A DNA stretch of 49,228 bases from a virus: IMG/VR virus record IMGVR_UViG_3300045258_000056, positions 1 through 49,228 of that record. The stretch is one strand, 5' to 3'. Position numbers and translations under genes: made by a program. The notes under the pieces were generated by a model. That model had not been told where the DNA came from and made no database searches. It was given only the letters and a program-made list of their open reading frames with translations. Positions 3,125 through 15,192 of the stretch are shown piece after piece. Positions within the stretch are counted from its first letter, which is position 1. Each line of letters starts with the position of its first letter.

Positions 3125-3513
3125 AGCCGATTGACGCGAAGTGGCAGGAAGTGGGCCGGGAGCCTATGTCGCGCAAGCAACAGAAGCTCCTAAACGCGGC
3201 TTGCGGCGACCTAGAGGAACAGTTGCGCTGGCGTGGTCGGCGTATGTCGAAAGATAGCTGGCGGCACTTCTTTTGCGGAACGATTTTAGGGCATGAGCCG
3301 TTGCCAGGATGGGACTATGGCGACGGGCGCGAGAGCGTGATATACATGCCTAGGTCGAGCCTAGAACTTTCCAAGACGCAGGCAACCGAGGCGATCACGA
3401 TGGCGTTTTTTCTTGGCGACAATCCCTCCGATCAAGACTGTGGAAATATTCCGGTTCGCTGGTGCGAAGTGATTGTTAAGGCGCGGTGGATAGTGGCTGA
3501 TGGCGATGCGTGA
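3121..3513 (+). CDS. ninB: NinB-like recombination protein
   Basis: 130 residues, the usual length of the NinB family. The core reads LRWRGRRMSKDSWRHFFCG, then GHEPLPGWDYG, then SSLELSKTQATEAITMAFF, the same order as in lambda NinB (Orf), a recombination mediator that helps load RecA-type strand exchange in place of host RecFOR. Its partners would be the Erf annealase and YqaJ exonuclease in the leftward operon. The last 14 nt overlap the start of the methyltransferase. Confidence 0.8.
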   Translation: MKPIDAKWQEVGREPMSRKQQKLLNAACGDLEEQLRWRGRRMSKDSWRHFFCGTILGHEPLPGWDYGDGRESVIYMPRSSLELSKTQATEAITMAFFLGDNPSDQDCGNIPVRWCEVIVKARWIVADGDA

Positions 3514-4234
3514 ACTATCCCTTTTCACTGGCGCAGGCGGCGGCTTGCTGGGTACGCATTTACTGGGCTGGGAGCCTTGCGGTTATGTCGAATGGAACGA
3601 ATATTGCCAGCGCGTCATCGCCGCCCGAATCCGTGATGGATATTTGCGAGAAGCCCCAATCTTTACTGACGTGCGTGAGTTCGTTCAGTCCGGTGCAGCC
3701 GAGCAATACCGAGGAATTGCGGACGTGGTTACTGCGGGCTTTCCCTGCCAGCCGACCAGCAACGCAGGAATGCAGCTTGGAGCCGCCGACCCTCGGGATA
3801 TGTGGCCCGCCACGCGGGACGTTATTCGCATTGTTCGACCCGGACGAGTGCTGCTGGAAAACGTTACAGGGCTGCTTACCACTGGATATGCCGGAATCGT
3901 CGTCTCCGACCTGGCCGGCTTGGGGTACATGGGCCGATGGGGCGTCATATCAGCAGGAGCAACCGGCGCGGATCACGAACGCGAACGGGTCTGGTTTGTT
4001 GCCTACCCCGAACGCATCCGACAACCGCGACCGCGGCAACGTGTCGAACCCGTCTATCCAGCGCCGAATGCGTATCGGGAAGCAAGTGGGCTTGTCGATG
4101 CTGTTCGCCGGGGAACCGTGCCCTATGTGTGTCGAAGCCATCATGGGCGTTCCGCTGGGGTGGACCGACTTAGCGCCCTTGGAAATGCTCAGGTTCCAAT
4201 CGTGGCGGCAACAGCTTGGAGACTCCTTTCATGA
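3500..4234 (+). CDS. C5-cytosine DNA methyltransferase (Dcm-like)
   Basis: 244 residues, short for a C5 methyltransferase. All key motifs are visible: motif I LSLFTGAGGG (residues 6-15), motif IV with catalytic Cys83 in GFPCQPTS, motif VI ENV at 120-122, a motif VIII equivalent HERERVW (159-165) and motif X GNAQVP (229-234). Only about 60 residues lie between VIII and X, so the target-recognition domain is very small. It would transfer a methyl group to cytosine in phage DNA, probably to resist host restriction; no cognate nuclease gene is adjacent. Almost its whole length is overlapped by another open frame at 3510-4238. Start ATG 3500 or 3506. Confidence 0.88.
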   Translation: MAMRELSLFTGAGGGLLGTHLLGWEPCGYVEWNEYCQRVIAARIRDGYLREAPIFTDVREFVQSGAAEQYRGIADVVTAGFPCQPTSNAGMQLGAADPRDMWPATRDVIRIVRPGRVLLENVTGLLTTGYAGIVVSDLAGLGYMGRWGVISAGATGADHERERVWFVAYPERIRQPRPRQRVEPVYPAPNAYREASGLVDAVRRGTVPYVCRSHHGRSAGVDRLSALGNAQVPIVAATAWRLLS

Positions 4235-4238
4235 CTGA
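3510..4238 (+). CDS. Long ORF overlapping the DNA methyltransferase in another frame
   Basis: 242 codons from GTG 3510 to TGA 4238, same strand, different frame, lying over almost the entire methyltransferase gene. The C-terminal part looks like a genuine protein: GSGLLPTPNASDNRDRGN, then NPSIQRRMRIGKQVGL, then MGVPLGWTDLAPLEM with FQSW. I remember this pattern (LPTP..SD, then MG.P.GWTDL.PL) from phage proteins that are often annotated as methyltransferase-associated; this was not checked. Either both frames are expressed (true dual coding) or the frame is the relic of a gene that lay next to a methyltransferase. The start is uncertain and translation may begin further inside. Confidence 0.5.
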   Translation: MNYPFSLAQAAACWVRIYWAGSLAVMSNGTNIASASSPPESVMDICEKPQSLLTCVSSFSPVQPSNTEELRTWLLRAFPASRPATQECSLEPPTLGICGPPRGTLFALFDPDECCWKTLQGCLPLDMPESSSPTWPAWGTWADGASYQQEQPARITNANGSGLLPTPNASDNRDRGNVSNPSIQRRMRIGKQVGLSMLFAGEPCPMCVEAIMGVPLGWTDLAPLEMLRFQSWRQQLGDSFHD

Positions 4239-4740
4239 GCGAGTTTGCCAGTGGTGCGGTAAAGCATTCGGCAGGGCCGTGTATGGCGGGAAGCAGGAAT
4301 GCCGCCGGTCTTTTGAGAAGCGGCTCTATTGCTGCAAAGCCTGTTGCTTGGCTTCCGCAAACAAGCGGAGCCGGGACCACTACGCCGCCAATAGGGTGGC
4401 GATCAGGGCCAGGAAGTCAGAGGTGATGCGGGAACTACGGACTGCGAACCCGCCTAAATACAGGGCGCAGAGCCGACAAGCAAAGGCAAAACTTCGTGAA
4501 CAGCTTTTCCAAATATACGGGGCGGCGTGCGCCCTTTGCGGGTTCACCGATAGGCGTGCGTTAACGCTAGACCACATTCTCAAAAACGGGGCCAAAGAGC
4601 GCGCAGAGCTTGGCGAGCGCGGGGTCTATCGCCGGGCGTTGGTCGCGGAATTTCGGTCGGAGTACCGGACGCTCTGCATGAATTGTCAGTTCATTGCGCG
4701 TCACCCAGTGGCTGCACGCGCATGGCAGGAGCTAGCCTGA
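4231..4740 (+). CDS. HNH endonuclease with N-terminal zinc knuckle
   Basis: 169 residues from ATG 4231, which overlaps the methyltransferase stop; a TTG at 4216 would add five residues. The N-terminus has CQWCGKAFGR and CCKACC, a zinc knuckle. The C-terminal half holds an HNH site: CALCGF, then LTLDHILKNG (Asp-His), then LCMNCQ. A basic linker, RQAKAKLREQLF, separates the two. Likely a nicking or homing-type nuclease. Confidence 0.75.
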   Translation: MTERVCQWCGKAFGRAVYGGKQECRRSFEKRLYCCKACCLASANKRSRDHYAANRVAIRARKSEVMRELRTANPPKYRAQSRQAKAKLREQLFQIYGAACALCGFTDRRALTLDHILKNGAKERAELGERGVYRRALVAEFRSEYRTLCMNCQFIARHPVAARAWQELA

Positions 4741-5009
4741 TGCACAGCAAGAATAAGCCGCCAATGATGCCCAATGAGCGCGAGCATGTAGGCCGGGTTA
4801 AGGCGTTACCTTGCGCGGTCTGCGGCGCTGGCGGCGTGAGCGAGGCACACGAAATTGAACAAGGTAAGTGGTTCCTGAGCATTCCGCTTTGCGCCGATTG
4901 TCACCGAGGGAGCCACAACGGCCTGCACGGTCAAAAGGTCATGTGGCGCATCATGAAGAAAACCGAGCTTTCCTGTTTGAACGACACTGTGAGGGAGTTA
5001 GTCAAATGA
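4740..5009 (+). CDS. HNH-type nuclease (Ref/DUF968-like)
   Basis: 89 residues from ATG 4740, overlapping the previous stop. Zinc and His positions are CAVCGAGGVSEAHEIEQG, then PLCADCHRGSHNGLHG, the pattern of the small Ref/DUF968 HNH nucleases found in phage recombination regions. These cut DNA in a recombinase-assisted manner in the best-studied case (P1 Ref). Coupled by ATGA to the next gene. Confidence 0.7.
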   Translation: MHSKNKPPMMPNEREHVGRVKALPCAVCGAGGVSEAHEIEQGKWFLSIPLCADCHRGSHNGLHGQKVMWRIMKKTELSCLNDTVRELVK

Positions 5010-5536
5010 CGAAGAAACACCGCCCGCGCACCGGCCTAGCCGCCAAGGTTCGCGCATGGCTGAAGGACAATCCCGGCGGCACGTCCAGCGCCTGCGCTCA
5101 GGCATTGGGAGCTGACCTGATTCCGACCACTCAGGCCCTGGCAAAGATGGCGCAGGCCGGGATGCTGTCCCGCGTGGAACTGCCCCGAATGCGCTCACAA
5201 GCCGCCCTGTACGCCTACACGCTCGTTCGGGAGCCACCCGTACCGCTGACTGCGGAGGAAGCCCGAATCCGCTACAACGCCCGCCAGCGCGGTTATGCGG
5301 CCCGCGATTCTGCCAAGCGCAAGGCCGAGAGGGCTATTCTGGACGCGCAGGCATTGAGGGATGCGCCGAAGCTGGTTCAGCCCATCGCCAAGGTCATTGT
5401 CCGCGCCGAACCTGAAACCGTGGAGCAGTTTGTGGCCCGTGGCGGCGTAGTCACGAAAGAGAAGCCCTGCCAATACATCCCATCGTCCGTCATCCCTGCG
5501 CGGGCTTCGATGCGCGGTGCGAGTGCTTGCCCGTGA
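5006..5536 (+). CDS. HTH-containing hypothetical protein
   Basis: 176 residues from ATG 5006. Residues 8-60 (GLAAKVRAWLKDNPGGTSSA, later QALAKMAQAGMLSRVEL) form a winged-helix-like domain. The middle is strongly basic and helical (RYNARQRGYAARDSAKRKAE) and may bind nucleic acid. The C-terminal 60 residues are unstructured-looking. Role unknown. Confidence 0.6.
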   Translation: MTKKHRPRTGLAAKVRAWLKDNPGGTSSACAQALGADLIPTTQALAKMAQAGMLSRVELPRMRSQAALYAYTLVREPPVPLTAEEARIRYNARQRGYAARDSAKRKAERAILDAQALRDAPKLVQPIAKVIVRAEPETVEQFVARGGVVTKEKPCQYIPSSVIPARASMRGASACP

Positions 5537-5793
5537 GCCGGTTCTATGTGGGGCAGAGGGTGCGCATGGCTAGACCATGCCTCTCCTTCAATGCAGGAGC
5601 CGAAGGAGTCATTGCCGAGATTTATGCAGAGAGCATGGTGCATGGCGGCATTGTGAATTGTCGAGTAAAATTCGACCGTCCGGTGATTGGAAATTGCTGC
5701 CATACCAATCAGCTAGAGCCGATTATCCCGCCCGGCATGGAATCCCTATCCGAAACCCTGGCGCTGTGGTTGCCGGAAGGAGAGACGGCATGA
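5533..5793 (+). CDS. Hypothetical protein, SH3-like N-terminus
   Basis: 86 residues from GTG 5533, which overlaps the previous stop; a TTG at 5527 is the alternative. The start SRFYVGQRVRMARP and the pattern GAEGVIAEIY then NCRVKFD suggest a small SH3-like barrel as in many phage accessory proteins. No more specific role can be given. Confidence 0.55.
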   Translation: MSRFYVGQRVRMARPCLSFNAGAEGVIAEIYAESMVHGGIVNCRVKFDRPVIGNCCHTNQLEPIIPPGMESLSETLALWLPEGETA

Positions 5794-6017
5794 GCATTTG
5801 CTACGGATGCGGAAAGCTGCTGACCGATGGCGTAGGCAGGCCAGTGGACGGGGTGTCACGTGAAGTGGATGGAAACCCCGTCCGGCTGCACAAGGTCTGC
5901 GCTAAGACCTTCGATGCCGATATGGTGCGCGTGAGTTCAGCGCCTATGGAATGGGAGCGCGACCCCCAACCCGAGCCTGCCGCGCCGCCGATGCCCGAAT
6001 CCGAATTGAGGTTTTGA
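5790..6017 (+). CDS. Hypothetical protein with possible zinc site
   Basis: 75 residues from ATG 5790 (ATGA overlap). Begins MSICYGCGKLLTDG, a CxxC followed by LHKVC further on, so a zinc-ribbon is plausible. Pro-rich acidic C-terminus. No family recognised. Confidence 0.55.
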   Translation: MSICYGCGKLLTDGVGRPVDGVSREVDGNPVRLHKVCAKTFDADMVRVSSAPMEWERDPQPEPAAPPMPESELRF

Positions 6018-6019
6018 CC

Positions 6020-6457
6020 ATGAAGCCCATTGAGTTCCCGCAGCAAAACACCGTGTTCGCCAAAGAGCAGCCGGAATATCTTCCGCTGCCTGCCTATCGC
6101 ACACCGGACGGCCAAGAAGTCACGGCCTGCTGGGGCATGACTTGGCGCGAGCGCCTTCGCGTTCTATTCACTGGCCGCGTGTACGTCACGCTGCTAACCT
6201 TTGGCAAGCCACTGACGCCGAGCTATGTGACCGCAGCGATGCCCAACACTTGGCCGTTTTTCGTCTGGAGCCGCATGGCAAAAGGAAACCCGAACATGTG
6301 GGCGTGGATTGACTGCAAGGTCGGGCGCTACTGGTACGTTTTCATGTGGGTCAAAGGCCAGCGTCCGACACTGTACCGAAGCACCGATGCCACGCCGCCA
6401 TTCAACAACGAGCGCGGGCACAACGATGGGCGCTGGATTTTAGGCGGCTCAGCATGA
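6020..6457 (+). CDS. Hypothetical protein
   Basis: 145 residues from ATG 6020. Rich in Trp and Tyr, with ACWGMTWRERLRVLFTGRVY, then PFFVWSRMAKGNPNMWAW and GRYWYVFMWVKG. The aromatic content suggests membrane-surface association or a compact beta fold. No family recognised. Coupled to the next gene by ATGA. Confidence 0.6.
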   Translation: MKPIEFPQQNTVFAKEQPEYLPLPAYRTPDGQEVTACWGMTWRERLRVLFTGRVYVTLLTFGKPLTPSYVTAAMPNTWPFFVWSRMAKGNPNMWAWIDCKVGRYWYVFMWVKGQRPTLYRSTDATPPFNNERGHNDGRWILGGSA

Positions 6458-6645
6458 ACGCCCGCCTAGGCGCAAGACTGGCCGCACAAAGGCGCTGGCG
6501 CATGCAGCCGCCCCCGAGCTTGGCCGCTGACACGCTGCGCGAGATTCGGGAGCGAGAGGCCGCGCGGCATGCCTATATTCGGCGCATGATTGGCTGGTTC
6601 CTGGTCGGGTTCATCGCGGCCTTCGTGATTGAGGCCGCGCTATGA
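6454..6645 (+). CDS. Small single-pass membrane protein
   Basis: 63 residues from ATG 6454. A basic N-terminal half (ARLAAQRRWRMQ) is followed by one C-terminal membrane segment, MIGWFLVGFIAAFVIEAAL. The basic side should stay in the cytoplasm. Function unknown. Confidence 0.6.
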   Translation: MNARLGARLAAQRRWRMQPPPSLAADTLREIREREAARHAYIRRMIGWFLVGFIAAFVIEAAL

Positions 6646-6719
6646 ACGCCCTATGTTTCCTACTCGGCGCACTCTGCATGTCTCTGCTTGATCGGTGGCT
6701 GGATAGGAGGCTCCCATGA
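6642..6719 (+). CDS. 25-residue hydrophobic peptide
   Basis: ATG 6642 overlaps the preceding stop and the own stop overlaps ATG 6716. The peptide begins MNALCFLLGALCMSLLDRW and is mostly one short membrane segment. Small, but double coupling and hydrophobic coherence with its neighbour make it believable. Confidence 0.45.
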   Translation: MNALCFLLGALCMSLLDRWLDRRLP

Positions 6720-7192
6720 CCGACGAATCAACCGTGCTGGACGAAGCCGCGCCGAACGTGGACGCGGCACATTGGAACGCATGGGGGCCGCACATGCGGG
6801 CCTTGTGGGCTTACATGCAGGAAAAGGGATTGCGCCTTGGCGGGATCACCGAGGGTAGCGATGCAAGCGCAACAAGCGAGGATCGGGCAGAGGCCATTCT
6901 CGCCAGCCTGAAAGAAGGGGAGGCTGGGGGCTGGGAACTAGTCGCAGACATTGGCGAATCCATCGTGGACAAGCTCCGCGCCGACCTGAAGCCCCGGAAG
7001 TCCTGGCGGGTTAGGAAGGCGAAGCTGGAGGCGGAGGTTGCGAAATTGACCGCCACGGAAGCCGACTTGCGGTTTACCACGCGAGAGGCCAATTTGGCCG
7101 CGTTTGAGGCTGAGAAGTCCCTAGTCCGCTGGCGATTGCTAGTGCTGGCACACTGGGTCGCAATGCTGATTCTGGTGGCGTGGGGGTGGTAA
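6716..7192 (+). CDS. Coiled-coil protein with C-terminal membrane anchor
   Basis: 158 residues from ATG 6716. Residues ~80-130 are a charged helical stretch (KLEAEVAKLTATEADLRF) likely to form a coiled coil, and the last ~20 residues, LLVLAHWVAMLILVAWGW, form one membrane segment. Follows two small membrane proteins in the same operon. Role unknown. Confidence 0.6.
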   Translation: MTDESTVLDEAAPNVDAAHWNAWGPHMRALWAYMQEKGLRLGGITEGSDASATSEDRAEAILASLKEGEAGGWELVADIGESIVDKLRADLKPRKSWRVRKAKLEAEVAKLTATEADLRFTTREANLAAFEAEKSLVRWRLLVLAHWVAMLILVAWGW

Positions 7193-7195
7193 ATC

Positions 7196-7222
7196 GCCCC
7201 GCTACCGCGTCCGGAGCGGGGC
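7196..7222 (+). terminator. Hairpin at the end of the early gene block
   Basis: GCCCCGCT (7196-7203) pairs perfectly with AGCGGGGC (7215-7222) around an 11-nt loop. It lies just after the stop at 7192 in the first sizeable gap (113 nt). No U-tract follows, so it is an attenuator or an mRNA-end hairpin rather than a clear intrinsic terminator. Confidence 0.4.
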
Positions 7223-7305
7223 TGTGGTGCGGAGGCATGTGCCATTCGGGGCCTGCCGCGTGCATGCGGGCGGGAGATTAAGGGAATGTTAAACGGGAGT
7301 CAAGC

Positions 7306-8031
7306 ATGCCATTTGGAGTGAGAAAGTTCGGCTGCGAGAACGCAAACTTCAAAAATGCAGGATGGCACGTCTGCGAGCAATGCAATTGCCGGTTCCACAA
7401 CTACGTGAAAACTCGGCGCTTTTGCTCCCAATCATGCAGATCGAAGGCTCCCGAGAATATAGCTAGGCTAGGGCCAATGGCTAGGTTGCCTAGAAAGCCA
7501 AGGATAAAAAGGCCAAGGAAAGAGGGGCCAAAGAATCGGATATATCGCTATACCCCTAGGCCCAAGAGGCCAAGCAGGAAAGAGGTGCGCAATTGCCAGC
7601 AATGCCAAGGTGAGTTTGTGGTATATCGCAGCAATACAAAGCGATTTTGCAGCTACCAATGCCATTTAGATTCTGGTGGCGCACAGAGGGCTGGGCAGGC
7701 TTCAGCAAGGGTGATAATGCAAATCAGAGGAAATAAAAAAGACCTAAACCATGATGCCCTCGTGGCTGTTTTTAAGGAGCTTGGATGCAGCGTCATGGAG
7801 TGCCATAGCGTCGGAATCCCAGGGTTCCCGGATTTGGTTGTCGGGTGCCTTTTTAGGACGCATCTAGTTGAGGTGAAGAACCCGGAAACCTCTTATGGGC
7901 GCAAGGGACTAAACGCGAAGCAAGAAAAATTCAATGATTCATGGCGAGGTGGGAAAGTGCAGATTGTACGATCTTCCGAGGACGTTATCGGACTGGTCAA
8001 CCGCTGGCGAAAAGAGGCCGAGCCAGCATGA
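7306..8031 (+). CDS. Zinc-ribbon protein fused to a PD-(D/E)XK (VRR-NUC-like) nuclease domain
   Basis: 241 residues from ATG 7306, with GGGAG 6 nt upstream. Two treble-clef-like zinc sites, CEQCNCRFH...FCSQSC and CQQCQGEFV...FCSYQC, flank a strongly basic linker (PRKPRIKRPRKEG). The C-terminal third shows the nuclease signature GIPGFPDLVVG, then HLVEVKNPETSYGRKGL and QEKF, as in VRR-NUC or Holliday-junction-resolvase-like enzymes: catalytic Asp, then E-V-K. Likely a structure-specific nuclease acting in replication or recombination. The DNA is noticeably more A/T-rich than its neighbours, a hint of separate origin. Confidence 0.7.
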   Translation: MPFGVRKFGCENANFKNAGWHVCEQCNCRFHNYVKTRRFCSQSCRSKAPENIARLGPMARLPRKPRIKRPRKEGPKNRIYRYTPRPKRPSRKEVRNCQQCQGEFVVYRSNTKRFCSYQCHLDSGGAQRAGQASARVIMQIRGNKKDLNHDALVAVFKELGCSVMECHSVGIPGFPDLVVGCLFRTHLVEVKNPETSYGRKGLNAKQEKFNDSWRGGKVQIVRSSEDVIGLVNRWRKEAEPA

Positions 8032-8249
8032 AACCCGAAGCCTTCGAGGTCACTATCGAAACCGCGTGGTTCGACTTGCGGCTCGCCAAGAAGCCGCGAA
8101 CGTACTACCTGACCCCGGCGCGTCGGCTATTGTGGGGCTATCATTCGGGCCTAGAGGCGGGGCGCGAGATTGGCACCTATACCAGCAAGGTCACGCTGGA
8201 GGACTTCAGAAGCGACTGTTTCCACGTTTTGGAGGAAGCCAACGCATGA
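8028..8249 (+). CDS. Hypothetical protein
   Basis: 73 residues from ATG 8028, which overlaps the preceding stop. Contains WFDLRLAKKPRTYYLTPARR and HSGLEAGREIGTYTSKVTLE. No family recognised. Coupled to the putative late regulator that follows. Confidence 0.55.
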   Translation: MKPEAFEVTIETAWFDLRLAKKPRTYYLTPARRLLWGYHSGLEAGREIGTYTSKVTLEDFRSDCFHVLEEANA

Positions 8250-8716
8250 AAGCCCCGAACCCCTTTGAAGCCAGCCTCCAGCTATGGGGACGTTTGCTGG
8301 GGGAACACGGCGATGGCCCGGACGGCATCCCCCGCGCTGACCAAACGCGCTATCACGCCCTCGTGCGGGCGGCAGACTTCCCCCCTGGTTCCGCGTCTGG
8401 CCGGTCGGCCCGTTCTATGTCCCGCTTACGCCAATCCCCGACATGGGGCTTTGAGCCGGTGGTCTGCACCGAAACCCGGACGCACCGAATCAGCACCCCG
8501 GAGGATTTGCCTTTGGAGGTTCGGCAGGTGCAAAAAGCCTTTGAACGGCTGCATGACTACGCGCCGGAGCTGGCCCGGGTCTTGCTGGCTAACTACCATC
8601 GCCTGGGGCCGCAGTCGGACAAGGCGGATGATTTGGGGCTTCCCTATCGGCGGTACAAGGACAGGCTGAAGGGAGCGCGAGCGGGCATGTTCCTGCTGCT
8701 ATCGGAGGGTGCTTGA
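8246..8716 (+). CDS. Putative late-gene regulator (antiterminator Q-like, sigma-4-like HTH)
   Basis: 156 residues from ATG 8246. The C-terminal 50 residues, PELARVLLANYHRLGPQSDK then DDLGLPYRRYKDRLKGARAG, match the shape of the sigma-region-4-like helix-turn-helix in phage Q antiterminators. It is the last gene before the RNA island and the lysis genes, the usual place of a late regulator. The TGA stop lies within the -35 box of the Y RNA promoter. N-terminal half not recognised; assignment tentative. Confidence 0.45.
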   Translation: MKAPNPFEASLQLWGRLLGEHGDGPDGIPRADQTRYHALVRAADFPPGSASGRSARSMSRLRQSPTWGFEPVVCTETRTHRISTPEDLPLEVRQVQKAFERLHDYAPELARVLLANYHRLGPQSDKADDLGLPYRRYKDRLKGARAGMFLLLSEGA

Positions 8717-8741
8717 CAATTCGTGCAGAACGCCCTAAATT
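8713..8741 (+). promoter_or_regulatory. Sigma-70-type promoter of the Y RNA array
   Basis: Perfect TTGACA at 8713-8718, a 17-nt spacer, then TAAATT at 8736-8741. Seven bases downstream of the -10, at 8748, is the first paired base of Y RNA A, so the predicted transcription start and the RNA 5' end agree. The -35 contains the stop codon of the upstream gene, and the string GTGCTTGACA recurs almost unchanged at the tRNA promoter (10560). Confidence 0.8.
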
Positions 8742-8747
8742 GGCGTT

Positions 8748-8807
8748 GCGGTGGTGAAGGTGTCGGGTTCCTCGCCTGTAGATAGCCCGGCCCCGTTTGT
8801 TCCCCGC
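8748..8807 (+). ncRNA. Y RNA-like element A (minimal)
   Basis: 60 nt. Basal stem GCGG (8748-8751) with CCGC (8804-8807). Above it lie two boxes shared with elements B and C: 5' box GTGGTGAAGG (8751-8760) and 3' box CGTTTGTTCCC (8794-8804), which I take as the Ro-binding part. The upper stem GGTGTCGGG (8759-8767) pairs with CCCGGCCCC (8786-8794) with one mismatch, closing an 18-nt loop. There is no tRNA-like module. Known Y RNAs use a long, conserved terminal stem to bind Ro60/Rsr, and the Rsr gene starts at 9087. Confidence 0.7.
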
Positions 8808-8820
8808 ACAAGTTTTGAAA

Positions 8821-8910
8821 GCGCGTGGTGTAGGTTTTCCGTTACTTCTTCGGATAAAAAGACTGGCGGGTGTAAGTCCCGCCGATACCGGAGACCGCTT
8901 GTTCCCGCGC
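8821..8910 (+). ncRNA. Y RNA-like element B (with a T-arm-like hairpin)
   Basis: 90 nt. Basal stem GCGCG (8821-8825) with CGCGC (8906-8910). The shared boxes are GTGGTGTAGG (8825-8834) and CGCTTGTTCCC (8896-8906). The upper stem GGTTTTCC (8833-8840) pairs with GGAGACC (8890-8896) with one bulge. Inside is a perfect 6-bp hairpin GGCGGG/CCCGCC (8865-8883) with a 7-nt loop TGTAAGT, close to a tRNA T-arm but lacking the canonical TTC. It may be an intermediate between a minimal Y RNA and the full YrlA type of element C. Confidence 0.72.
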
Positions 8911-8923
8911 CCATTGTTGGAAA

Positions 8924-9058
8924 GCTGGTGGTGTAGAGGACGATTTCATCGACTGTTAATCGAGAGGTCGCGGGTTCGAGTCCCGCCATAGGCCGGAAGG
9001 TCAATGTAGCTCAGCCGGTTAGAGCGCTAAAAAAGATCGTTTTCGCTTGTTCCCCAGC
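8924..9058 (+). ncRNA. yrlA: YrlA-type Y RNA with permuted tRNA-Asn-like module
   Basis: 135 nt. Basal stem GCTGG/CCAGC (8924-8928, 9054-9058); Ro boxes GTGGTGTAG (8928-8936) and CGCTTGTTCCC (9044-9054); upper stem of 11 consecutive pairs (8936-8946 with 9034-9044, three of them G-U). Enclosed, in permuted order, is a whole tRNA: anticodon arm TCGA-CTGTTAA-TCGA (8949-8963), AGGTC, T-arm GCGGG-TTCGAGT-CCCGC (8970-8986), acceptor strand CATAGGCC, tetraloop GGAA (8995-8998), acceptor strand GGTCAATG (one A-A mismatch, one wobble), TA, D-arm GCTC-AGCCGGTTA-GAGC (9009-9025). Tetraloop-capped tRNA mimicry is the published hallmark of YrlA RNAs, Rsr partners. Confidence 0.87.
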
Positions 9059-9086
9059 CCTATCGTGGTATCCCCGAGGAGGCATC

Positions 9087-10391
9087 ATGCAAAGCAATGT
9101 AGCGCGGCAGTTCCGAGTTCAAACCGCTGGCGGCGCTCCCGCCTTCCCGCATCTTTCCCCGATTCAGCAGCTCCGGCGCTCGGTGCTGTCTTGCCTGTTG
9201 TGGGAGTCGGAGTTCTACGAGTCCGGCCAGCTCATCGCGGATCGCATCGAATCCCTGGCGGCCCAAGTCACCGCCGAGCAGCTTTCGGCGCTGGCGATTG
9301 AGGCCCGCGACGTTCACAACCTGCGGCATGTCTCGCTGCTTCTGTGCGTGGCGCTCGCCAAGCGTGGCGGTTCCAGCGTGGCCCCGACCATTGCCAAGGT
9401 TATTCAGCGTGCGGACGAACTGAACGAGTTCGTTTCGCTGTACTGGCGTGCTGGCAAGTCGCCGCTGGCGAAGCAGGTCAAGAAAGGCTTGGCGCTCGCC
9501 TTCCAGAAGTTCGACGGCTACCAGCTCGCCAAGTACGACCGCGAAAAGGCTGTGCGCCTGCGGGACGTGCTGTTCATGGTTCACGCCAAGCCGAAGGACG
9601 AAGTTCAGGCCGCGCTCTGGAAGTCACTGGTGGATGGCACGTTGCCGTCCCCGGACACTTGGGAAGTCGCCCTGTCTGCCGGTGGCGACAAGAAAACCGA
9701 GTTCACCCGCCTATTGACTGAGGGCAAGCTGGGCTATTTCGCCCTGCTTCGCAATCTCCGGAACATGGTGGAGGCTGGCGTGGATGAATCCCTCATCCGG
9801 GCGGCTATCGTGGCCCGTAAGGGTGGCGCTCAGAAGGTTCTGCCGTTCCGGTATGTGGCGGCGGCCCGCGCCTGCCCGCGCCTGGAGCCGAGCCTTGACC
9901 AAGCCTTGTCGGAAGCCATCGCCGAGTCGGCCCCCTTCAGCGGCAAAACGATTGTACTGGTGGACGTATCCGGTTCAATGGATGCCAAGCTGTCGGCCAA
10001 GTCCGACTTGACCCGCATGGACGCGGCCTGCGCCTTGGCGAGCATGATCCACGGCGACCTGCGCATGTTCAGCTTTTCCTACAAGCTGGTCGAAGTTCCG
10101 CCCCGTCGCGGTATGGCGGGCGTGGATGCCCTTGTCCGTTCGCAGGAACACGGCGGCACGGCCTTGGCTGAAGCGGTGGCGGCGGTCAACAAACTGCCCC
10201 ATGACCGGCTGATCGTCATTACCGATGAGCAGGCGACTACGGGAGGTATCCCGGCCCCGGTGGCAAAGCGGGCCTATATGGTCAACGTTGCCAGCAACAA
10301 GAACGGCGTGGGCTATGGCCCATGGACGCACCTTGACGGCTTCAGCGAAGGCATCCTTCGGTGGATGCGCGAGTCTGAGAATGACACCTGA
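9087..10391 (+). CDS. rsr: Ro60/Rsr-like TROVE-domain RNA-binding protein
   Basis: 434 residues from ATG 9087, Shine-Dalgarno GAGGAGG a few bases upstream. The N-terminal ~260 residues are the helical-repeat (TROVE) ring, with family landmarks SPIQQLRRSVLSCLLWE, KFDGYQLAKYDRE, VRLRDVLFMVHAKPKDE and LLRNLRNM. The C-terminal vWA domain (about 285-434) has an intact metal site: DVSGS (293-297), T358 in GGTAL, D380 in ITDE. Ro60 rings bind misfolded RNA ends in the central hole and Y RNAs on the outer surface; bacterial Rsr works with Y RNAs and exoribonucleases in rRNA and ncRNA handling. Size is near that of other Rsr proteins (around 500 residues), slightly shorter. Three Y RNAs lie directly upstream, an unusually complete phage RNP locus. 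Confidence 0.93.
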   Translation: MQSNVARQFRVQTAGGAPAFPHLSPIQQLRRSVLSCLLWESEFYESGQLIADRIESLAAQVTAEQLSALAIEARDVHNLRHVSLLLCVALAKRGGSSVAPTIAKVIQRADELNEFVSLYWRAGKSPLAKQVKKGLALAFQKFDGYQLAKYDREKAVRLRDVLFMVHAKPKDEVQAALWKSLVDGTLPSPDTWEVALSAGGDKKTEFTRLLTEGKLGYFALLRNLRNMVEAGVDESLIRAAIVARKGGAQKVLPFRYVAAARACPRLEPSLDQALSEAIAESAPFSGKTIVLVDVSGSMDAKLSAKSDLTRMDAACALASMIHGDLRMFSFSYKLVEVPPRRGMAGVDALVRSQEHGGTALAEAVAAVNKLPHDRLIVITDEQATTGGIPAPVAKRAYMVNVASNKNGVGYGPWTHLDGFSEGILRWMRESENDT

Positions 10392-10563
10392 GGAACTGGC
10401 GAAAGCCGGGGTGACGCTCTACGGCAAATGGGGCTGGCAGACACGGATGGCCGAAGCCCTGGGCGTGGATGGCAGTACGGTACGGCGCTGGGTTTCCGGT
10501 GCCGTGCCGGTTCCTGGGCCGGTTGTCGCGGCGCTCACTTGCCTGTTGGGCAGGTGTGCTTGA
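10381..10563 (+). CDS. Small HTH DNA-binding protein
   Basis: 60 residues from ATG 10381, overlapping the end of the Rsr gene by 11 nt, so probably co-translated with it. WGWQTRMAEALGVDGSTVRR followed by WVSGAVPVPG is a clear Cro/XRE-type helix-turn-helix with its recognition helix. It may regulate the adjacent promoters. The stop codon is part of the -35 box of the tRNA promoter. Confidence 0.7.
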   Translation: MTPEELAKAGVTLYGKWGWQTRMAEALGVDGSTVRRWVSGAVPVPGPVVAALTCLLGRCA

Positions 10564-10588
10564 CATTTGGCCCGACCCACCCGAAAAT
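10560..10588 (+). promoter_or_regulatory. Promoter of the tRNA operon
   Basis: Perfect TTGACA at 10560-10565, 17-nt spacer, then GAAAAT at 10583-10588 (four of six -10 matches). As at the Y RNA promoter, the -35 box includes the stop codon of the gene before it. About 70 nt of leader would precede the first tRNA. Confidence 0.6.
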
Positions 10589-10659
10589 CCGCTAACGTCT
10601 GTTTTTGCCCCTGCAACATTCCCGCGAGGCTTCTATGTCATCCCGAAGTTCAATCACAT

Positions 10660-10750
10660 GGAAGGGTGGCAGAGCGGCAATGCGTTCGCTTGCTAAGCGA
10701 TAGCCGGGCACGAAAGTCCCGCGCCGGTTCGATTCCGGCCCCTTCCGCCA
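10660..10750 (+). tRNA. tRNA-Ser (GCT)
   Basis: 91 nt with all arms: acceptor GGAAGGG/CCCTTCC, anticodon loop TTGCTAA (anticodon GCT), long variable arm GGGC-ACGAAA-GTCCC, T-arm GCCGG-TTCGATT-CCGGC, discriminator G and encoded CCA (10748-10750). First gene of the three-tRNA operon. Confidence 0.93.
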
Positions 10751-10757
10751 AGTTCAG

Positions 10758-10845
10758 GGAAGGTGCCGCTGGGTTGGCTGGCAGACAGCCTCGAAAACTG
10801 TAGGTGCCGTAACAGGTAGGGGTTCGACTCCTCCGCCTTCCGCCA
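10758..10845 (+). tRNA. tRNA-Ser (CGA)
   Basis: 88 nt: acceptor GGAAGGT (10758-10764) with GCCTTCC (10835-10841, one G-U), loop CTCGAAA giving anticodon CGA, stem ACAG/CTGT, variable arm TGCC/GGTA around GTAACA, T-arm with TTCGACT, discriminator G and CCA (10843-10845). The T-stem and the last pair of the anticodon stem are slightly imperfect. A tRNA-Sec identity was considered because of the long arms, but the loop does not carry TCA. Confidence 0.8.
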
Positions 10846-10847
10846 TT

Positions 10848-10933
10848 GGAGAGATAGACCGCTAAGGAGGCGGGACGGGCTGTAACCCCGTTGGCGCAAG
10901 CCCCGCAAGGCTCGATACCTTGTCACTCCACCA
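10848..10933 (+). tRNA. tRNA-Tyr (GTA)
   Basis: 86 nt: acceptor GGAGAGA with TCACTCC (one mismatch), anticodon stem ACGGG/CCCGT perfect with loop CTGTAAC (anticodon GTA), variable arm TGGC-GCAA-GCC, T-arm CAAGG-CTCGATA-CCTTG, discriminator A and CCA (10931-10933). The T-loop starts with C where T is usual. Last tRNA before the terminator. Confidence 0.82.
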
Positions 10934-10937
10934 CTTC

Positions 10938-10965
10938 AGCCCCGCCTAACCAGCGGGGCTTTTTA
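10938..10965 (+). terminator. Intrinsic terminator of the tRNA operon
   Basis: AGCCCCGC (10938-10945) pairs perfectly with GCGGGGCT (10953-10960) around CTAACCA, followed by a T run (10960-10964). It begins 5 nt after the CCA of tRNA-Tyr and separates the RNA island from the lysis genes. Confidence 0.9.
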
Positions 10966-11051
10966 CTGGGCGAAAGCCCATTGGCGGCAGTCTGCCGTCG
11001 CCGCCCGGCCCTTCCCTCGGGGGTCGCGGCGGCACCTTTTTGGAGTTGTCC

Positions 11052-11312
11052 GTGCCGGAAGCGATGTTCGTCAATTTCGCGCTGACCCTGCTAGCCGCTG
11101 GCTGCATTGGGCTGGTCGGGGCGCACCTGAAGCTGCGCTCTGACCTGTCCGACTTGCGCCTGCGTGTGGCTGAGAACTACGCCAACAAGGGCGATATTTC
11201 CAAGGTCGAGGCCGCCATGACTTCGGTTTCCAGTGAGCTTCAGGCGGTTCTGAAGGCCGTTTATCAAATCCAGGCAGACTTGAAGGCAAGTCAAGCTCAT
11301 GGCGGACGCTGA
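11052..11312 (+). CDS. Membrane-anchored coiled-coil protein (lysis region)
   Basis: 86 residues from GTG 11052, preferred because GGAG lies six bases upstream; TTG 11040 would add four residues. One N-terminal membrane segment (FALTLLAAGCIGLVGAHL) is followed by a helical coiled-coil-like region. Shape and position resemble the small pre-endolysin membrane proteins of phage lysis cassettes, but I cannot say whether it is a holin, antiholin or something else. Confidence 0.6.
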   Translation: MPEAMFVNFALTLLAAGCIGLVGAHLKLRSDLSDLRLRVAENYANKGDISKVEAAMTSVSSELQAVLKAVYQIQADLKASQAHGGR

Positions 11313-11649
11313 GGATTCGGCTGGCGCTCTAAACGAGGCAGCAAGGCGGCTGGAGGCTGCGAGTCGCAATTTTGCGACGGCCAACAGTAACCAGTCCACG
11401 GTGACCTTGCAGGCAGGCGGTGCCGGGGTTTGGGTAGCCACCACATGCTGCCTGATTATGTTGTTTTCAGGTCTGATGGGGGCGTTTTGGGTATCCAGAG
11501 AGTTCAATCAGATTGACGCTCAAATGACCACACTCCGCAATGACAATGATGTGATGCGCCAATATTTGAGCAGCATCTATCAGCAGGCCCCATGGCTCAC
11601 AAGGCCCACTGAAAAACAGAAAGAGGAAAAGGCTAGCGGTTCCAAGTAG
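11299..11649 (+). CDS. Single-pass membrane protein (lysis region)
   Basis: 116 residues from ATG 11299, overlapping the previous gene by 14 nt. A helical N-terminus (EAARRLEAASRNF) precedes one membrane segment around residues 46-68 (VWVATTCCLIMLFSGLMGAF), then a soluble C-terminus with a basic end. Its last 17 nt overlap the convergent HNH gene. Possibly works with the preceding protein in lysis timing. Confidence 0.6.
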   Translation: MADAEDSAGALNEAARRLEAASRNFATANSNQSTVTLQAGGAGVWVATTCCLIMLFSGLMGAFWVSREFNQIDAQMTTLRNDNDVMRQYLSSIYQQAPWLTRPTEKQKEEKASGSK

Positions 11650-12268
11650 TCTCTGTGAGCGCCCTTTCTACTGACCATCCGGCCTTTAGTCTGGCGTGGA
11701 GCGTGCTAGCTTGAACTCCAACCTTTCTAGCCCAAACGGCCATTTCGTAGGTCTCGCTATTGTAAGTGATGAGTTTTGCGCTTTTTGGGATGCGTCGGTT
11801 AGCTGATTGTTCTTTCCGCGTGGCCCAGCGGCAGTTTGATGGTTCGTAGTTGCCGTCATTGTCGATTCGATCAAGCGTGTGCTGCGGACTGGGCGGAGGC
11901 CCCATGTCATCGCGCCAAGCTGCGAAGTCATGCCGCCATTTGTCGCAGACAGAAATTCCCCTGCCGCCATAGTTTTCAAAATATTTGGTAGTGGGGTTGT
12001 GGCAGCGCGCAATCATGGCGACCCATACGCTATAAAGCCTGTCCCTGTTTTTACGGCCCGCGCCACCATGGGTGGTATGTCGTTCATCCCGAAGGCACCC
12101 GCAAGAACCGCTTAAACCGCGAGTTAAATTCCCATGCGGGATATCTCGAATCGTTCCACATTCACACCGGCATTCCCAAAGGGTGCATCTGCCTCTTTGA
12201 TAGTTTCGCCGATTTAGCACCGTCCATCGGCCAAAAGTTTGTCCATTTAGATCAATTCGTTTTGACAT
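11633..12268 (-). CDS. HNH homing endonuclease-like protein (opposite strand)
   Basis: 211 residues from ATG 12268 (MSKRIDLNGQTFGRW); the frame is open further upstream but this start fits the family. The N-terminus has LNGQTFGRWTVLNR and a zinc pair CRCECGT...GSCGC, then RLYSVWVAMIARCHNP, YGGRGISVCDKW, then the nuclease part TLDRIDNDGNYEPSNCRWAT, a well-known phage and mobile-element endonuclease layout. The C-terminus has an HTH-like segment. It is the only minus-strand gene within the plus-strand half, which marks it as an independent insertion in the lysis cassette. Confidence 0.85.
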   Translation of the reverse strand: MSKRIDLNGQTFGRWTVLNRRNYQRGRCTLWECRCECGTIRDIPHGNLTRGLSGSCGCLRDERHTTHGGAGRKNRDRLYSVWVAMIARCHNPTTKYFENYGGRGISVCDKWRHDFAAWRDDMGPPPSPQHTLDRIDNDGNYEPSNCRWATRKEQSANRRIPKSAKLITYNSETYEMAVWARKVGVQASTLHARLKAGWSVERALTETTWNR

Positions 12269-12334
12269 GATGGCACCTAGTTTGATGGTTGTCAGCACGT
12301 CAATTATACAATAAAGCAGGAGAGAGTTTTCTTC

Positions 12335-12505
12335 ATGTCGATCATCATCCTTACCCCGATGCGCCCCAGCCCGACACGGCCCGACCCCCTGCCCATTCCC
12401 CCGCCCGAACTTGTGCTGGCTTGTCCGCACACCGAGGCTTGGTACGACGAAGACCAAAACCTCATTTGCGCTGCCTGCTTCGCGGTCTTGGCCGAAGGCG
12501 CGTGA
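12335..12505 (+). CDS. Small Pro-rich, zinc-site protein before the endolysin
   Basis: 56 residues from ATG 12335 with a strong AGGAGAG upstream. Pro-rich N-terminus (MRPSPTRPDPLPIPPPE) and a C-terminal CPH...CAAC that could bind zinc. The stop overlaps the GTG start of the endolysin, so the two are translated together. Function unknown. Confidence 0.6.
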   Translation: MSIIILTPMRPSPTRPDPLPIPPPELVLACPHTEAWYDEDQNLICAACFAVLAEGA

Positions 12506-13032
12506 TAACCGGCGACACCCTGAGGGCCATCTACGGCGACACCATGGCGGACGAAAACGCCTGGTCGCTGCCGATTTGGACGGCCTGCCAGCGGTACGGC
12601 ATCACGACTCGCCTGCGCCTTGCCGCCTTTCTGGCGCAGATCGGGCACGAGTCGGGGCGGCTGCACTACGTCCGCGAGATTTGGGGGCCGACACTCGCGC
12701 AGAAGCGCTACGAAGGCCGCCTAGACTTGGGCAACACCCAGCCCGGCGACGGCAAGCGGTACATGGGTCGCGGCCTGATTCAGATTACCGGGCGCTCGAA
12801 TTACGACAAGGTTGGGCAGGCGCTGGCATGGAACTTCGTCGGGCATCCCGAATTACTGGAGGAACCCGGTTGGGCGGCCCTGTCTGCCGGATGGTTTTGG
12901 GACTCGCGCAAGCTGAACGTTCTGGCCGATAAGCCGGACTTCCTCGCCATTACCAAGAAAATCAACGGCGGCTACAACGGACTTGCCGACCGCCAAGCCC
13001 TGTATGACCGCGCTTTGAAGGTGCTGGTTTGA
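12502..13032 (+). CDS. Endolysin, GH19 chitinase/muramidase-like
   Basis: 176 residues from GTG 12502, which overlaps the previous stop (GTGA); the frame is open to 12289 but that region reads as non-protein. The active-site block LAAFLAQIGHESGRLHYVRE carries the catalytic Glu in HES (about residue 50), followed by KRYMGRGLIQITGRSNY and GWFWDSRKLN, the standard order for phage GH19 lysozymes. It should cut the glycan strands of host peptidoglycan. No signal peptide, so it needs a holin, probably the next gene. Confidence 0.88.
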   Translation: MITGDTLRAIYGDTMADENAWSLPIWTACQRYGITTRLRLAAFLAQIGHESGRLHYVREIWGPTLAQKRYEGRLDLGNTQPGDGKRYMGRGLIQITGRSNYDKVGQALAWNFVGHPELLEEPGWAALSAGWFWDSRKLNVLADKPDFLAITKKINGGYNGLADRQALYDRALKVLV

Positions 13033-13448
13033 ACATCAAGGGTTGGTCGGCAGCGGCGCTGACCCCGATAGTCGCGTTTGTTGCGTTGTGGCCCCAGGTG
13101 GAGCCGTTCGCGGACTGGCTGCTAAAAATATTCATGCTTGCGATTGACCGGCCCTTGTTTCAGATGGGGGCTTCATCCATTGTGGCGGGACTGGCGCTGG
13201 CGGCGTTCATCCCGCATATCCCTTACATCGGCAAGTGGCAGGCAGGCACTACAAAGGGATGGACTCGATTTAGCGCGGGACTATTCACGGCAGGGTTCTT
13301 CCTGCTTCTGACGCGCCCGACCACGCCGCCCCAGTGGGCCGATTGCGGCACCTTCGCGTTCGTCGCTGGTGGGTGTGCGGCGGCTGGCTGGACTACGTTT
13401 TCAGGCTGGTTTTACAAGGTGGTGGACAAGCCGGAGTCGCTGAAATGA
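13029..13448 (+). CDS. Multi-pass membrane protein, holin candidate
   Basis: 139 residues from TTG 13029, overlapping the endolysin stop. Four or five hydrophobic segments are visible: LTPIVAFVALW, WLLKIFMLAI, SSIVAGLALAAFI, FSAGLFTAGFFLLL and FAFVAGGCAAAGW. Small, multi-pass and directly linked to the endolysin, so the best holin candidate. No family assigned with certainty. Confidence 0.6.
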   Translation: MNIKGWSAAALTPIVAFVALWPQVEPFADWLLKIFMLAIDRPLFQMGASSIVAGLALAAFIPHIPYIGKWQAGTTKGWTRFSAGLFTAGFFLLLTRPTTPPQWADCGTFAFVAGGCAAAGWTTFSGWFYKVVDKPESLK

Positions 13449-13468
13449 ACGACCAATACCACGGATTC
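13445..13468 (+). pseudogene. Broken copy of the DQYHGF micro-gene
   Basis: ATG 13445 overlaps the holin-candidate stop and codes for MNDQYHGF followed by TGA. The same start occurs at 13836 as MKDQYHGF and goes on for 21 residues. The 16 of 24-plus shared bases at the two starts suggest a duplication, of which this copy has decayed. After it come about 130 bases with no gene that I can support. Confidence 0.35.
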
Positions 13469-13599
13469 TGAATTTTTGGCGGCGGCGTGGAAGGACACGC
13501 AGGTTACGTCACGTTCTAGCGCGGGGCTTTCGATCCGTAGTGCGACCCGTGAATAGCCGGAATCAAGTCCGGCCCGCCATTTCACCAAAGGCTGAACTG

Positions 13600-13839
13600 A
13601 TGCGTAGAATTACATGGACAGTCCGCCCCGAAAAGATCGGCTGGAACGTGGTGCGCGACGACAAGGCGCTCTATTGGTTCCTCTGGAAATTCCGGGCCGT
13701 AGCCTTCGCCCGCCGCCGCTGCAATTTTGAGCTTCAGCACTATCACCAGCCGAGTGAGTTGATGATCGCTGACCGGAAGGGGCGATATACGGCTGAGGGA
13801 TCGACTTACGGCAATGACCCAAGGAATATTCCCGGATGA
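13600..13839 (+). CDS. Hypothetical protein (DUF2188-like)
   Basis: 79 residues from ATG 13600 (frame open from 13540). Starts MRRITWTVRPEKIGWNVVRD and continues with aromatic and basic residues (WKFRAVAFARRR). The pattern VRPE..GW.V.RD recalls small DUF2188-type proteins. The stop overlaps ATG 13836. Confidence 0.55.
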   Translation: MRRITWTVRPEKIGWNVVRDDKALYWFLWKFRAVAFARRRCNFELQHYHQPSELMIADRKGRYTAEGSTYGNDPRNIPG

Positions 13840-13901
13840 AAGACCAATATCACGGCTTCATTGGCGCTGAGGACATTCGCACTGGCTTCGGTGACGGCTA
13901 A
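13836..13901 (+). CDS. 21-residue micro-ORF
   Basis: ATG 13836 overlaps the preceding stop and the TAA overlaps the ATG of Rz at 13901. The peptide begins MKDQYHGFIGAEDIRTGFG. Similar tiny DQYHG proteins are, as I remember, scattered in phage lysis regions. The near-copy at 13445 supports a real small gene. Confidence 0.45.
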   Translation: MKDQYHGFIGAEDIRTGFGDG

Positions 13902-14458
13902 TGCCTTTCTGGCTATTCTTGAAACCGTTCCTAACGGGCGCTATGGCGTTCCTGAAGGGTTTGCCGTGGCAGCTATGGGCTGGACTCGGGATAATGGCGC
14001 TGGGGCTGTTCTGGGGCCATCTGCGCTTCAACGCCGGGCAGACTGAAGGACTGGCCGAGCGCGACAAGGTTCAGGCCAAGTACGATGCCCACCTGAGGGC
14101 CGACACCGACGCGCTGGACGAAGCAAAGCGCGAGGCCAGGGCCGCTGAATCCGCCCAGAAACAGGCAATGGCCGATGCCAAAGCCACCTACGCCAAGGAC
14201 AAGCAACATGCGCTCGACGCAAAAGACCTGGTTATTGCTGACCTTCGTTCTGGCGCTCGCCGGTTGCAAGACAAGTGGCGGGGTTGTGAGTCCGGCCCCA
14301 AAACCGCAGGCGGTGGACAAGGAAGCGATGGCCTCGCCGACCTACGAGCAGAAAGTGCAGGGCGAATTGTTCGATACGCCGCCGAAGCCGATGCCCAAGT
14401 AACCTACCTGCAAGGGCTGATACGCTCGGCCCCTGCTTGTTTCAGGATTGAGCCGTGA
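13901..14458 (+). CDS. Rz: Rz-like inner-membrane spanin
   Basis: 185 residues from ATG 13901. One N-terminal signal anchor (LWAGLGIMALGLFWGHLRF) is followed by a long charged coiled coil (about residues 55-120, e.g. DALDEAKREARAAESAQKQA), as in i-spanins (DUF2514 type). It pairs with the outer-membrane lipoprotein encoded inside it to fuse both membranes at lysis. This implies a Gram-negative host. Confidence 0.82.
   Translation: MPFWLFLKPFLTGAMAFLKGLPWQLWAGLGIMALGLFWGHLRFNAGQTEGLAERDKVQAKYDAHLRADTDALDEAKREARAAESAQKQAMADAKATYAKDKQHALDAKDLVIADLRSGARRLQDKWRGCESGPKTAGGGQGSDGLADLRAESAGRIVRYAAEADAQVTYLQGLIRSAPACFRIEP
14208..14402 (+). CDS. Rz1: Rz1-like outer-membrane lipoprotein spanin, embedded in Rz
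   Basis: 64 residues from ATG 14208, wholly inside Rz in the +1 frame, the lambda-type arrangement. It starts MRSTQKTWLLLTFVLALAGC: basic end, hydrophobic core and lipobox LAGC with the Cys to be lipidated. The mature part is short and Pro-rich at the end (TPPKPMPK), as o-spanins are. The frame is open from 14175 but the signal peptide fixes the start. Confidence 0.85.
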   Translation: MRSTQKTWLLLTFVLALAGCKTSGGVVSPAPKPQAVDKEAMASPTYEQKVQGELFDTPPKPMPK

Positions 14459-14577
14459 GCCTATCCACTGGCGATTTGGTCATGGGAACCATAGGCATGC
14501 TGATTGTCTGGCTTATGGAGCCGCGCTTTATGGTCGCGGTCTGGAGCGCCCTTGAGGCGGCAAAGAAGCGGAAATGA
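14455..14577 (+). CDS. 40-residue membrane peptide
   Basis: GTG 14455 overlaps the Rz stop and the own stop overlaps ATG 14574. One hydrophobic segment (VMGTIGMLIVWLMEP) and a basic end (EAAKKRK). Too short for the usual gene cut-off but double-coupled. Confidence 0.55.
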   Translation: MSLSTGDLVMGTIGMLIVWLMEPRFMVAVWSALEAAKKRK

Positions 14578-14774
14578 CCGAAGCTGAACACAATGTCCGG
14601 GTCTTGCTGAACACGGTTCCCGCCGTTGATCGGGCCATTGTGGTATTTCCGGCTGAGGGCATAGAATCCAGCGTGCGCTGGGTCGGCATGACGGCTGAAC
14701 AAGTCGCATCTACCCTGTACCAAGTGGCCGATGAAGTGTTAAGGCAGCGGGTTCCTTTGAGGGAGCGGCACTGA
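14574..14774 (+). CDS. Hypothetical protein
   Basis: 66 residues from ATG 14574 (ATGA overlap). Soluble, with VPAVDRAIVVFPAEGIESSV and VASTLYQVADEVLRQR. Its stop shares one base with the next ATG. No family recognised. Confidence 0.6.
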   Translation: MTEAEHNVRVLLNTVPAVDRAIVVFPAEGIESSVRWVGMTAEQVASTLYQVADEVLRQRVPLRERH

Positions 14775-14974
14775 TGGACGGGATAGAGACATTATTGGCG
14801 ACATTGAGCGCCGATCCCGAGTTCAAGCGCAGGTTGGCCGAAAACAGTTTCATGCACAGTCTGGATTGGACGGATAGCCAACTAAAGCGGTACAACGCTC
14901 GCCTGTTTGACCTGGGCGCTCGGCAGATTCGCTGGCGGCCTAGCCGCTTGAGCCTTGAGGGTGTGCTGAGATGA
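14774..14974 (+). CDS. Hypothetical protein
   Basis: 66 residues from ATG 14774. Charged, helical, with LLATLSADPEFKRRLAENSF. No family recognised. Coupled to the next gene by overlap. Confidence 0.6.
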   Translation: MDGIETLLATLSADPEFKRRLAENSFMHSLDWTDSQLKRYNARLFDLGARQIRWRPSRLSLEGVLR

Positions 14975-15192
14975 TGACTTGGAAGCACTGGGCTGTGATG
15001 TGGCTAGTGCCTGACGCGCAGACTGAGGCCATGTGGTTGTTATATGCCAGACAGCTTGCTTTGGCGTTTGACAGCAATGTTCCGGCCATCGTCCTATTGG
15101 CGATGGTTTGGACGGTGCATGTTGTCATTGTCAGTGCCCTTATTTTCGGGCCGCTTATACTGATGGGATGGCCTGGGAATCATGGCCTGTGA
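14971..15192 (+). CDS. Two-segment membrane protein
   Basis: 73 residues from ATG 14971. Hydrophobic stretches include VPAIVLLAMVWTVHVVIVSA and LIFGPLILMGW. Possibly a lysis accessory protein; no family recognised. Overlaps the next gene by 25 nt. Confidence 0.55.
   Translation: MMTWKHWAVMWLVPDAQTEAMWLLYARQLALAFDSNVPAIVLLAMVWTVHVVIVSALIFGPLILMGWPGNHGL

Follow-up and report, generated by a model that had tools for sequence, protein, structure and literature searches.

A phage Ro60-like protein gene preceded by three Y RNAs, the largest of which contains a permuted tRNA-like domain with an anticodon arm

Does a phage encode a Ro60-like protein together with Y RNAs of its own, and what could such RNAs be for? 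This question is raised by positions 8713-10391 of a 49,228-nucleotide (nt) stretch of viral DNA (IMG/VR record IMGVR_UViG_3300045258_000056, analysed at full length and called the window here), where a promoter-like site, three RNA elements (Y1, Y2, and Y3), and the open reading frame (ORF) rsr follow one another 5' to 3' on the plus strand (Table 1). A sequence-only reading of this DNA had proposed a promoter and three tandem elements of about 60, 90, and 135 nt at 8713-9058, which we found as claimed, and a phage Rsr protein with its own multi-variant Y RNA set, which is supported by the protein fold, the covariation, and the linkage to rsr seen in dozens of loci. The strongest feature of the locus is absent from that reading: a complete permuted tRNA with an anticodon arm inside Y3. 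On balance, and with modest confidence, we favor the view that the locus encodes a phage Ro ribonucleoprotein whose Y3 docks a tRNA-binding enzyme through a tRNA disguise. At the level of sequence and model, the analysis establishes the architecture, the covariation, the linkage, and the predicted protein fold.

Y3 is composed of a Ro-type basal stem and a tRNA-like body joined to it at tRNA position 26/27. After the first strand of the Ro stem come a tRNA-Asn-like anticodon arm and a variable loop of 5 nt, both ahead of the T arm, which is followed by the capped acceptor and then by the D arm. Consensus folding, which had been suggested as a check, was applied to 17 rsr-linked elements and to 28 mostly pattern-found elements, with the window Y3 in both sets. 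Unguided, it recovered a five-way junction in which the anticodon arm, the T arm, the capped acceptor, and the D arm meet, together with a closing stem and the basal stem, with compensatory changes at 28 of 37 pairs in the first set and 21 of 30 in the second. We also used a covariance model, built from elements first chosen by an anticodon-arm pattern and with the alignment fitted to the model, which gave 65 matches in 44 rsr-selected loci. In these matches, 94.4% of the pair cells were paired, compared with 64.5% after shuffling and 44-49% after sliding, and double-sided changes occurred in 34 of 37 pairs; in the anticodon stem, they occurred at four of five pairs, with 87% of cells paired. 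When the modules were rearranged into tRNA order, ARAGORN called 50 of 51 as tRNA, but none of 51 shuffled and none of 51 mis-ordered versions; because the 51 modules had been parsed by requiring arms, the mis-ordered control is the informative part of this test. The rearranged Y3 of the window was called tRNA-Asn(GTT).

Table 1. Positions of the promoter, RNA elements, Y3 modules, and rsr in the window
Feature	Positions	Strand	Description or basis
Sigma-70-like promoter, TTGACA-17-TAAATT	8713..8741	+	TTGACA 8713-8718, TAAATT 8736-8741
Y1, minimal Y RNA, ~60 nt	8748..8807	+	Basal stem GCGG/CCGC (U bulge) and upper hairpin; tRNA-like module absent
Y2, intermediate Y RNA, ~90 nt	8821..8910	+	Basal stem GCGCG/CGCGC and T-arm-like hairpin GCGGG-UGUAAGU-CCCGC
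Y3, tRNA-mimicking YrlA-like Y RNA, ~135 nt	8924..9058	+	Basal stem GCTGG/CCAGC and full circularly permuted cloverleaf
Y3 anticodon arm, loop CUGUUAA, anticodon GUU at 8955-8957	8948..8964	+	First stem pair A.G mismatched, four pairs remain
Y3 T arm, GCGGG-UUCGAGU-CCCGC	8970..8986	+	Rfam YrlA alignment, consensus fold
Y3 acceptor stem, hairpin-capped, no free 3' end for charging	8987..9006	+	Consensus fold
Y3 D arm, GCUC-AGCCGGUUA-GAGC	9009..9025	+	Rfam YrlA alignment, consensus fold
rsr, 434-amino-acid TROVE-vWA (Ro60-like) protein	9087..10391	+	Pfam, PHROGs, structure model

The basal stems of Y1, Y2, and Y3 differ in sequence, yet all of them pair; a bulged U and, after it, GG facing CC recur in every one. 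Y1 departs slightly from the two boxes said to be shared by all three elements and reads GTGGTGAAG and CGTTTGTTCCC. A stem-plus-box scan upstream of rsr found exactly Y1-Y3 (mean of 0.00 in 20 single-base shuffles), and the same scan of the 1.5 kb downstream found no element. For comparison loci, rsr homologues were gathered from viral contigs and genomes and from annotated phages, and 67 candidate elements, relatives' loci included, were picked by the two boxes alone, disregarding the flanks. Their five flanking base pairs were formed in 90% of cases, whereas 2000 re-pairings averaged 55% and never exceeded 61%, in agreement with the earlier claim that the basal stems covary. Over the whole window, the covariance model matched Y1 (33.2 bits, E=2.1e-7) and Y2 (22.8 bits, E=1.6e-4), both outside its training set; it also matched Y3 (E=7.5e-34), which belonged to that set.

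The size of the array varies among relatives: CcrColossus has seven elements, each of the Xanthomonas phages Olaya and 10KY502B has five, Rhizobium phage TM30 has four, and Streptomyces phage Quantum has two. Arrays combine minimal with tRNA-like elements; therefore, the graded complexity in the window is a general pattern. The suggestion that it is unprecedented in a phage was too strong, phage Y RNAs having been reported before and relatives carrying longer arrays. We then searched viral contigs blind to rsr with the anticodon-arm pattern GNTNCTTCGACTNNNAATCG, which gave 64 non-redundant matches. A T arm at tRNA spacing was present in 46 of them; 31 of these had an rsr ORF on the same strand at most 1.5 kb downstream, and several of the remaining ones stop close to a contig or locus edge; among the 18 without a T arm, only three had an rsr ORF within 1.5 kb downstream. 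Y3 and rsr match Xanthomonas phages at 73% DNA identity, with the rest of window positions 1-20000 unmatched, as would be expected for a cassette moving as a unit. Bacterial chromosomes also carry such tRNA-like Y RNA elements, and in several bacterial genomes they are linked to rsr.

Bacterial YrlA (RF02553; Chen et al. 2014 and Wang et al. 2018, as cited in PMC8394870 and PMC12282133) shares with this array the Ro-type basal stem and the adjacency to rsr, and in both YrlA and Y3 the T arm, a capped acceptor, and the D arm follow one another in a tRNA-like domain. The YrlA domain has been likened to the D, T, and acceptor arms (PMC8394870). Y3 and many of its relatives keep, in addition, an anticodon arm whose 7-nt loop is canonical, whereas the Rfam consensus and the published YrlA description are without such an arm. 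Judged by the features of YrlA, the window array and its relatives lie next to rsr and have a covarying basal helix closing both ends, but within the window the tRNA-like domain occurs in Y3 only, Y1 having none and Y2 just a T-arm-like hairpin. The suggested search with established models succeeded in part: the Rfam YrlA model aligned the T arm, acceptor, and D arm of Y3 in YrlA order, but at 35.1 bits, and no match in the window or in six related phage loci exceeded its gathering score of 69, which is a library threshold and no defining property of Y RNAs. Sub-threshold YrlA matches were also seen on neighboring tRNA gene pairs in bacterial genomes (e.g., L146), formed by the T arm of one gene and the D arm of the next. 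Because tandem tRNA genes score similarly, a weak YrlA match alone is no proof, and matches of 30-40 bits should not be trusted in the absence of a basal stem and rsr.

In some Rfam-found bacterial YrlA-like RNAs (L143, ~1307-1383; L141, 1340-1474), the T arm is preceded by a small hairpin whose 7-nt loop reads CUNNNAC and which may be an anticodon arm in reduced form. Given this hairpin and the elements on bacterial chromosomes, the anticodon arm is not phage-specific. In the literature searched, the reach of which ended short of the primary Y RNA papers, we found no mention of an anticodon arm in Y RNAs.

Could the elements instead be tRNA genes that are decaying or have been misread, or else transcription attenuators, in either case unlinked to Rsr? 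ARAGORN reports Y3 as tRNA-Asn, and GenBank labels equivalents in related phages as tRNA-Thr and tRNA-Ser. However, the D arm comes after the T arm, the acceptor is capped, the basal stems covary element by element, and the rsr linkage spans dozens of viruses and several bacterial genomes. A tRNA gene has acceptor-D-anticodon-T order and a free 3' end; Y3 has neither, and on the grounds of its arm order and capped acceptor we rejected it as a tRNA gene. An attenuator is likewise unsupported, as 8600-11050 contains just two terminator-like sites, one after the tRNA cluster behind rsr and one on the minus strand. We therefore consider this explanation hardly credible.

The protein encoded by rsr matches Pfam TROVE (PF05731) at 45 bits (cut-off 23) as well as the vWA domain, and falls in the RNA-binding PHROGs family phrog_850 (E=5e-52). 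The predicted intact metal site (DxSxS, T, D) was confirmed: D293, S295, S297, and D380 are invariant in 28 homologues, and T358 is at least 90% conserved among them. An AlphaFold model (predicted local distance difference test score, pLDDT, 83.8) and a Foldseek comparison indicate a helical-repeat ring with a vWA domain. The top 13 Foldseek matches were all Ro/TROVE structures, with template modeling (TM) scores up to 0.73 of the query, and the best were 9KOP, Thermus phage phiLo Ro60 (9L5Y), human and other vertebrate Ro60, and Deinococcus radiodurans Rsr. The TROVE helical ring and vWA domain are shared with D. radiodurans Rsr (2NVO), vertebrate Ro60 (1YVP, 2I91, and 9NEP), and phiLo Ro60, but the window protein is shorter than all of these and only 15-24% identical to them over the structural alignments. 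Among its named relatives, hypothetical proteins from Xanthomonas phages are nearest (71-72%), ahead of proteins from jumbo phages of Brevundimonas and Caulobacter (61-62%). A covariance model search near the phiLo Ro60 gene gave no Y RNA match.

How well is the anticodon arm kept among the Y3 relatives? An arm was counted as canonical when the four stem pairs inspected all formed and the loop had exactly seven bases, which was the case in 28 of the 65 model matches. U33 was found in 26 of these 28 and a purine at position 37 in 27, and the arms displayed 14 different triplets, GUU being the most frequent (7). In a wider set, 47 elements had 19 triplets, led by GUU (13) and UGU (11). Two or more tRNA-like types coexist in some arrays, as with Glu-CUC alongside Asn-GUU or Thr-UGU (L041 and L040). 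In some modules, the likeness to a specific tRNA extends past the anticodon; in the Xanthomonas phages, the Glu-CUC element has a D arm that we take to be of the Glu type. A kept U-turn loop with a free anticodon suggests partners that read the anticodon arm, such as baited nucleases, modification enzymes, or decay and repair partners.

In the docking model that we favor, the Rsr ring would hold each Y RNA on its outside through the basal stem, Y1 and Y2 would cover or stabilize Rsr, and the tRNA disguise of Y3 would dock a host or phage enzyme that recognizes tRNA, so that the particle would process damaged tRNA or other structured RNA in infection. Since its acceptor is capped and its order permuted, Y3 would be neither aminoacylated in the usual way nor a translating tRNA. 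Several observations weigh against this model. With only 28 of 65 matches canonical, the anticodon arm is dispensable for some Y RNAs, and the counts from the 65 matches lean towards structure because the training set was pattern-chosen and the alignment model-fitted. When Y3 is folded as a single sequence, its anticodon stem is weak, at a pair probability of ~0.37, and is missing from the minimum-energy fold; it may form only through tertiary tRNA contacts, or it may be degenerating in this phage. An RNA repair operon has rtcB nearby, and no RtcB was found in the 49-kb record, which is possibly incomplete.

The intact anticodon loops and the many triplets, with GUU and UGU commonest, could also be read as bait: the array would present uncharged, capped tRNA look-alikes, each type with its particular anticodon, that occupy host anticodon nucleases and so spare phage and host tRNAs. 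The several tRNA-like types within some arrays and the phage tRNA genes near many rsr loci agree with this, and so does the literature, in which jumbo-phage Ro proteins are placed in RNA repair, with tRNA-repair functions assigned to them (PMC7824862), and it is suggested that YrlA, which is itself not cleaved, may inhibit an anticodon nuclease by competition (PMC7790460). However, no particular nuclease is pointed to, Salmonella YrlA has a proven tRNA-like fold but is described without an anticodon arm, and the occurrence of the same kind of element in bacterial genomes means that a phage defense role is not required. We regard this reading as unlikely. Its extension to phage Y RNA arrays in general, as banks of permuted and unchargeable decoy or bait tRNAs displayed by a Ro ring, whose anticodons would have been diversified in conflict with host anticodon nucleases or would suit the recruitment of particular tRNA-recognizing enzymes, is a speculation that we hold to be slightly more doubtful still.

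A further possibility is a RYPER-like particle, in which a Y RNA links Rsr to host PNPase and structured RNA (rRNA, host mRNA, or tRNA fragments) is degraded to the benefit of the phage. This is the sole bacterial Rsr mechanism with biochemical proof, obtained in D. radiodurans (summarized in PMC7790460 and PMC8394870). It nevertheless leaves the kept anticodon arm and the variety of anticodons unexplained, and no PNPase-binding feature was identified in our analysis of this locus. We give it a minor but appreciable chance.

The phage Ro-Y RNA system is known in kind, and its under-described part is the permuted whole tRNA with a variable anticodon. The abstract of Chen et al. 2014 reportedly names more than 250 bacterial and phage species. 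PMC12282133 and PMC7765460 credit phage Y RNAs near Ro60 to Chen et al. 2014 and to Sim and Wolin 2018. In the Salmonella rsr-yrlBA-rtcBA RNA repair operon (PMC7790460), too, rsr is accompanied by at least two Y RNAs, including one that is tRNA-like, whereas the window is without rtcB and has its array upstream of rsr. As for the array itself, it differs from YrlA in that Y3 lies under the Rfam threshold, Y1 is without a tRNA-like part, and Y2 has only a T-arm-like hairpin.

Listeria phage CKA15 (2025, PMC12282133) likewise has an Rsr-like protein, also present in virions, and three highly transcribed non-coding regions nearby that were proposed as Y RNAs. This protein is distant from the window Rsr, being of the DUF2828/DUF7788 kind in the related phage P100, and the covariance matches there are weak or tRNA-sized. 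P100 (DQ004855, L139) belongs to the phage group studied in that work. Its gp55, considered as the TROVE-like gene, is a ribonucleotide reductase; the TROVE-like gene is gp165 (23570-25090, minus strand), which matches DUF2828 and DUF7788. Just upstream of gp165 (~25125-25430, minus strand), there are three tandem elements with differing self-complementary ends, GGAATC/GATTCC, GAGAGC/GCTCTC, and GGAAGC/GCTTCC and a common box, ACAGCAANUACU; by eye, these look like a diverged Y RNA array.

The promoter ends 7 nt before Y1 as measured from the -10 hexamer, and rsr begins 29 nt past Y3. Three promoter-like sites occur in the region, compared with 0.6 expected from shuffles. The window belongs to a tailed phage, encoding terminase, major head, portal, tape measure, and tail proteins, together with an endolysin, a spanin, a replication initiation protein, a RecE-like exonuclease, and an Erf annealing protein. 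A small helix-turn-helix ORF (10381-10563, HTH_31/YdaS-like, below the Pfam cut-offs) overlaps the end of rsr by 11 nt. Three tRNA genes come directly behind rsr (10560-10960), namely Ser-GCT, Ser-CGA, and Tyr-GTA, and the cluster has a separate promoter-like site (10560) and a terminator (10938-10960). The rsr neighborhoods of many related phages also hold tRNA genes, which may fit a role in tRNA biology. In the Brevundimonas jumbo phage Gurke (L042, 7378-7723), Rfam finds a permuted transfer-messenger RNA (57.7 bits, threshold 47).

GenBank tRNAs just upstream of phage rsr genes overlap tRNA-like Y RNAs at 4831-4898 in L040 (Thr), 3802-3876 in L042 (Ser), and 3140-3207 in L043 (Gln), and these three annotations are probably misannotations. 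This calls for caution, as some of the phage tRNA genes in GenBank are probably Y RNAs. If many Y RNAs present a full tRNA with a variable anticodon loop, their partners would narrow to readers of the anticodon arm, namely nucleases, modification enzymes, and synthetases, and the cultured phages of Xanthomonas, Caulobacter, Brevundimonas, Rhizobium, and Streptomyces that carry long arrays would be ready test systems.

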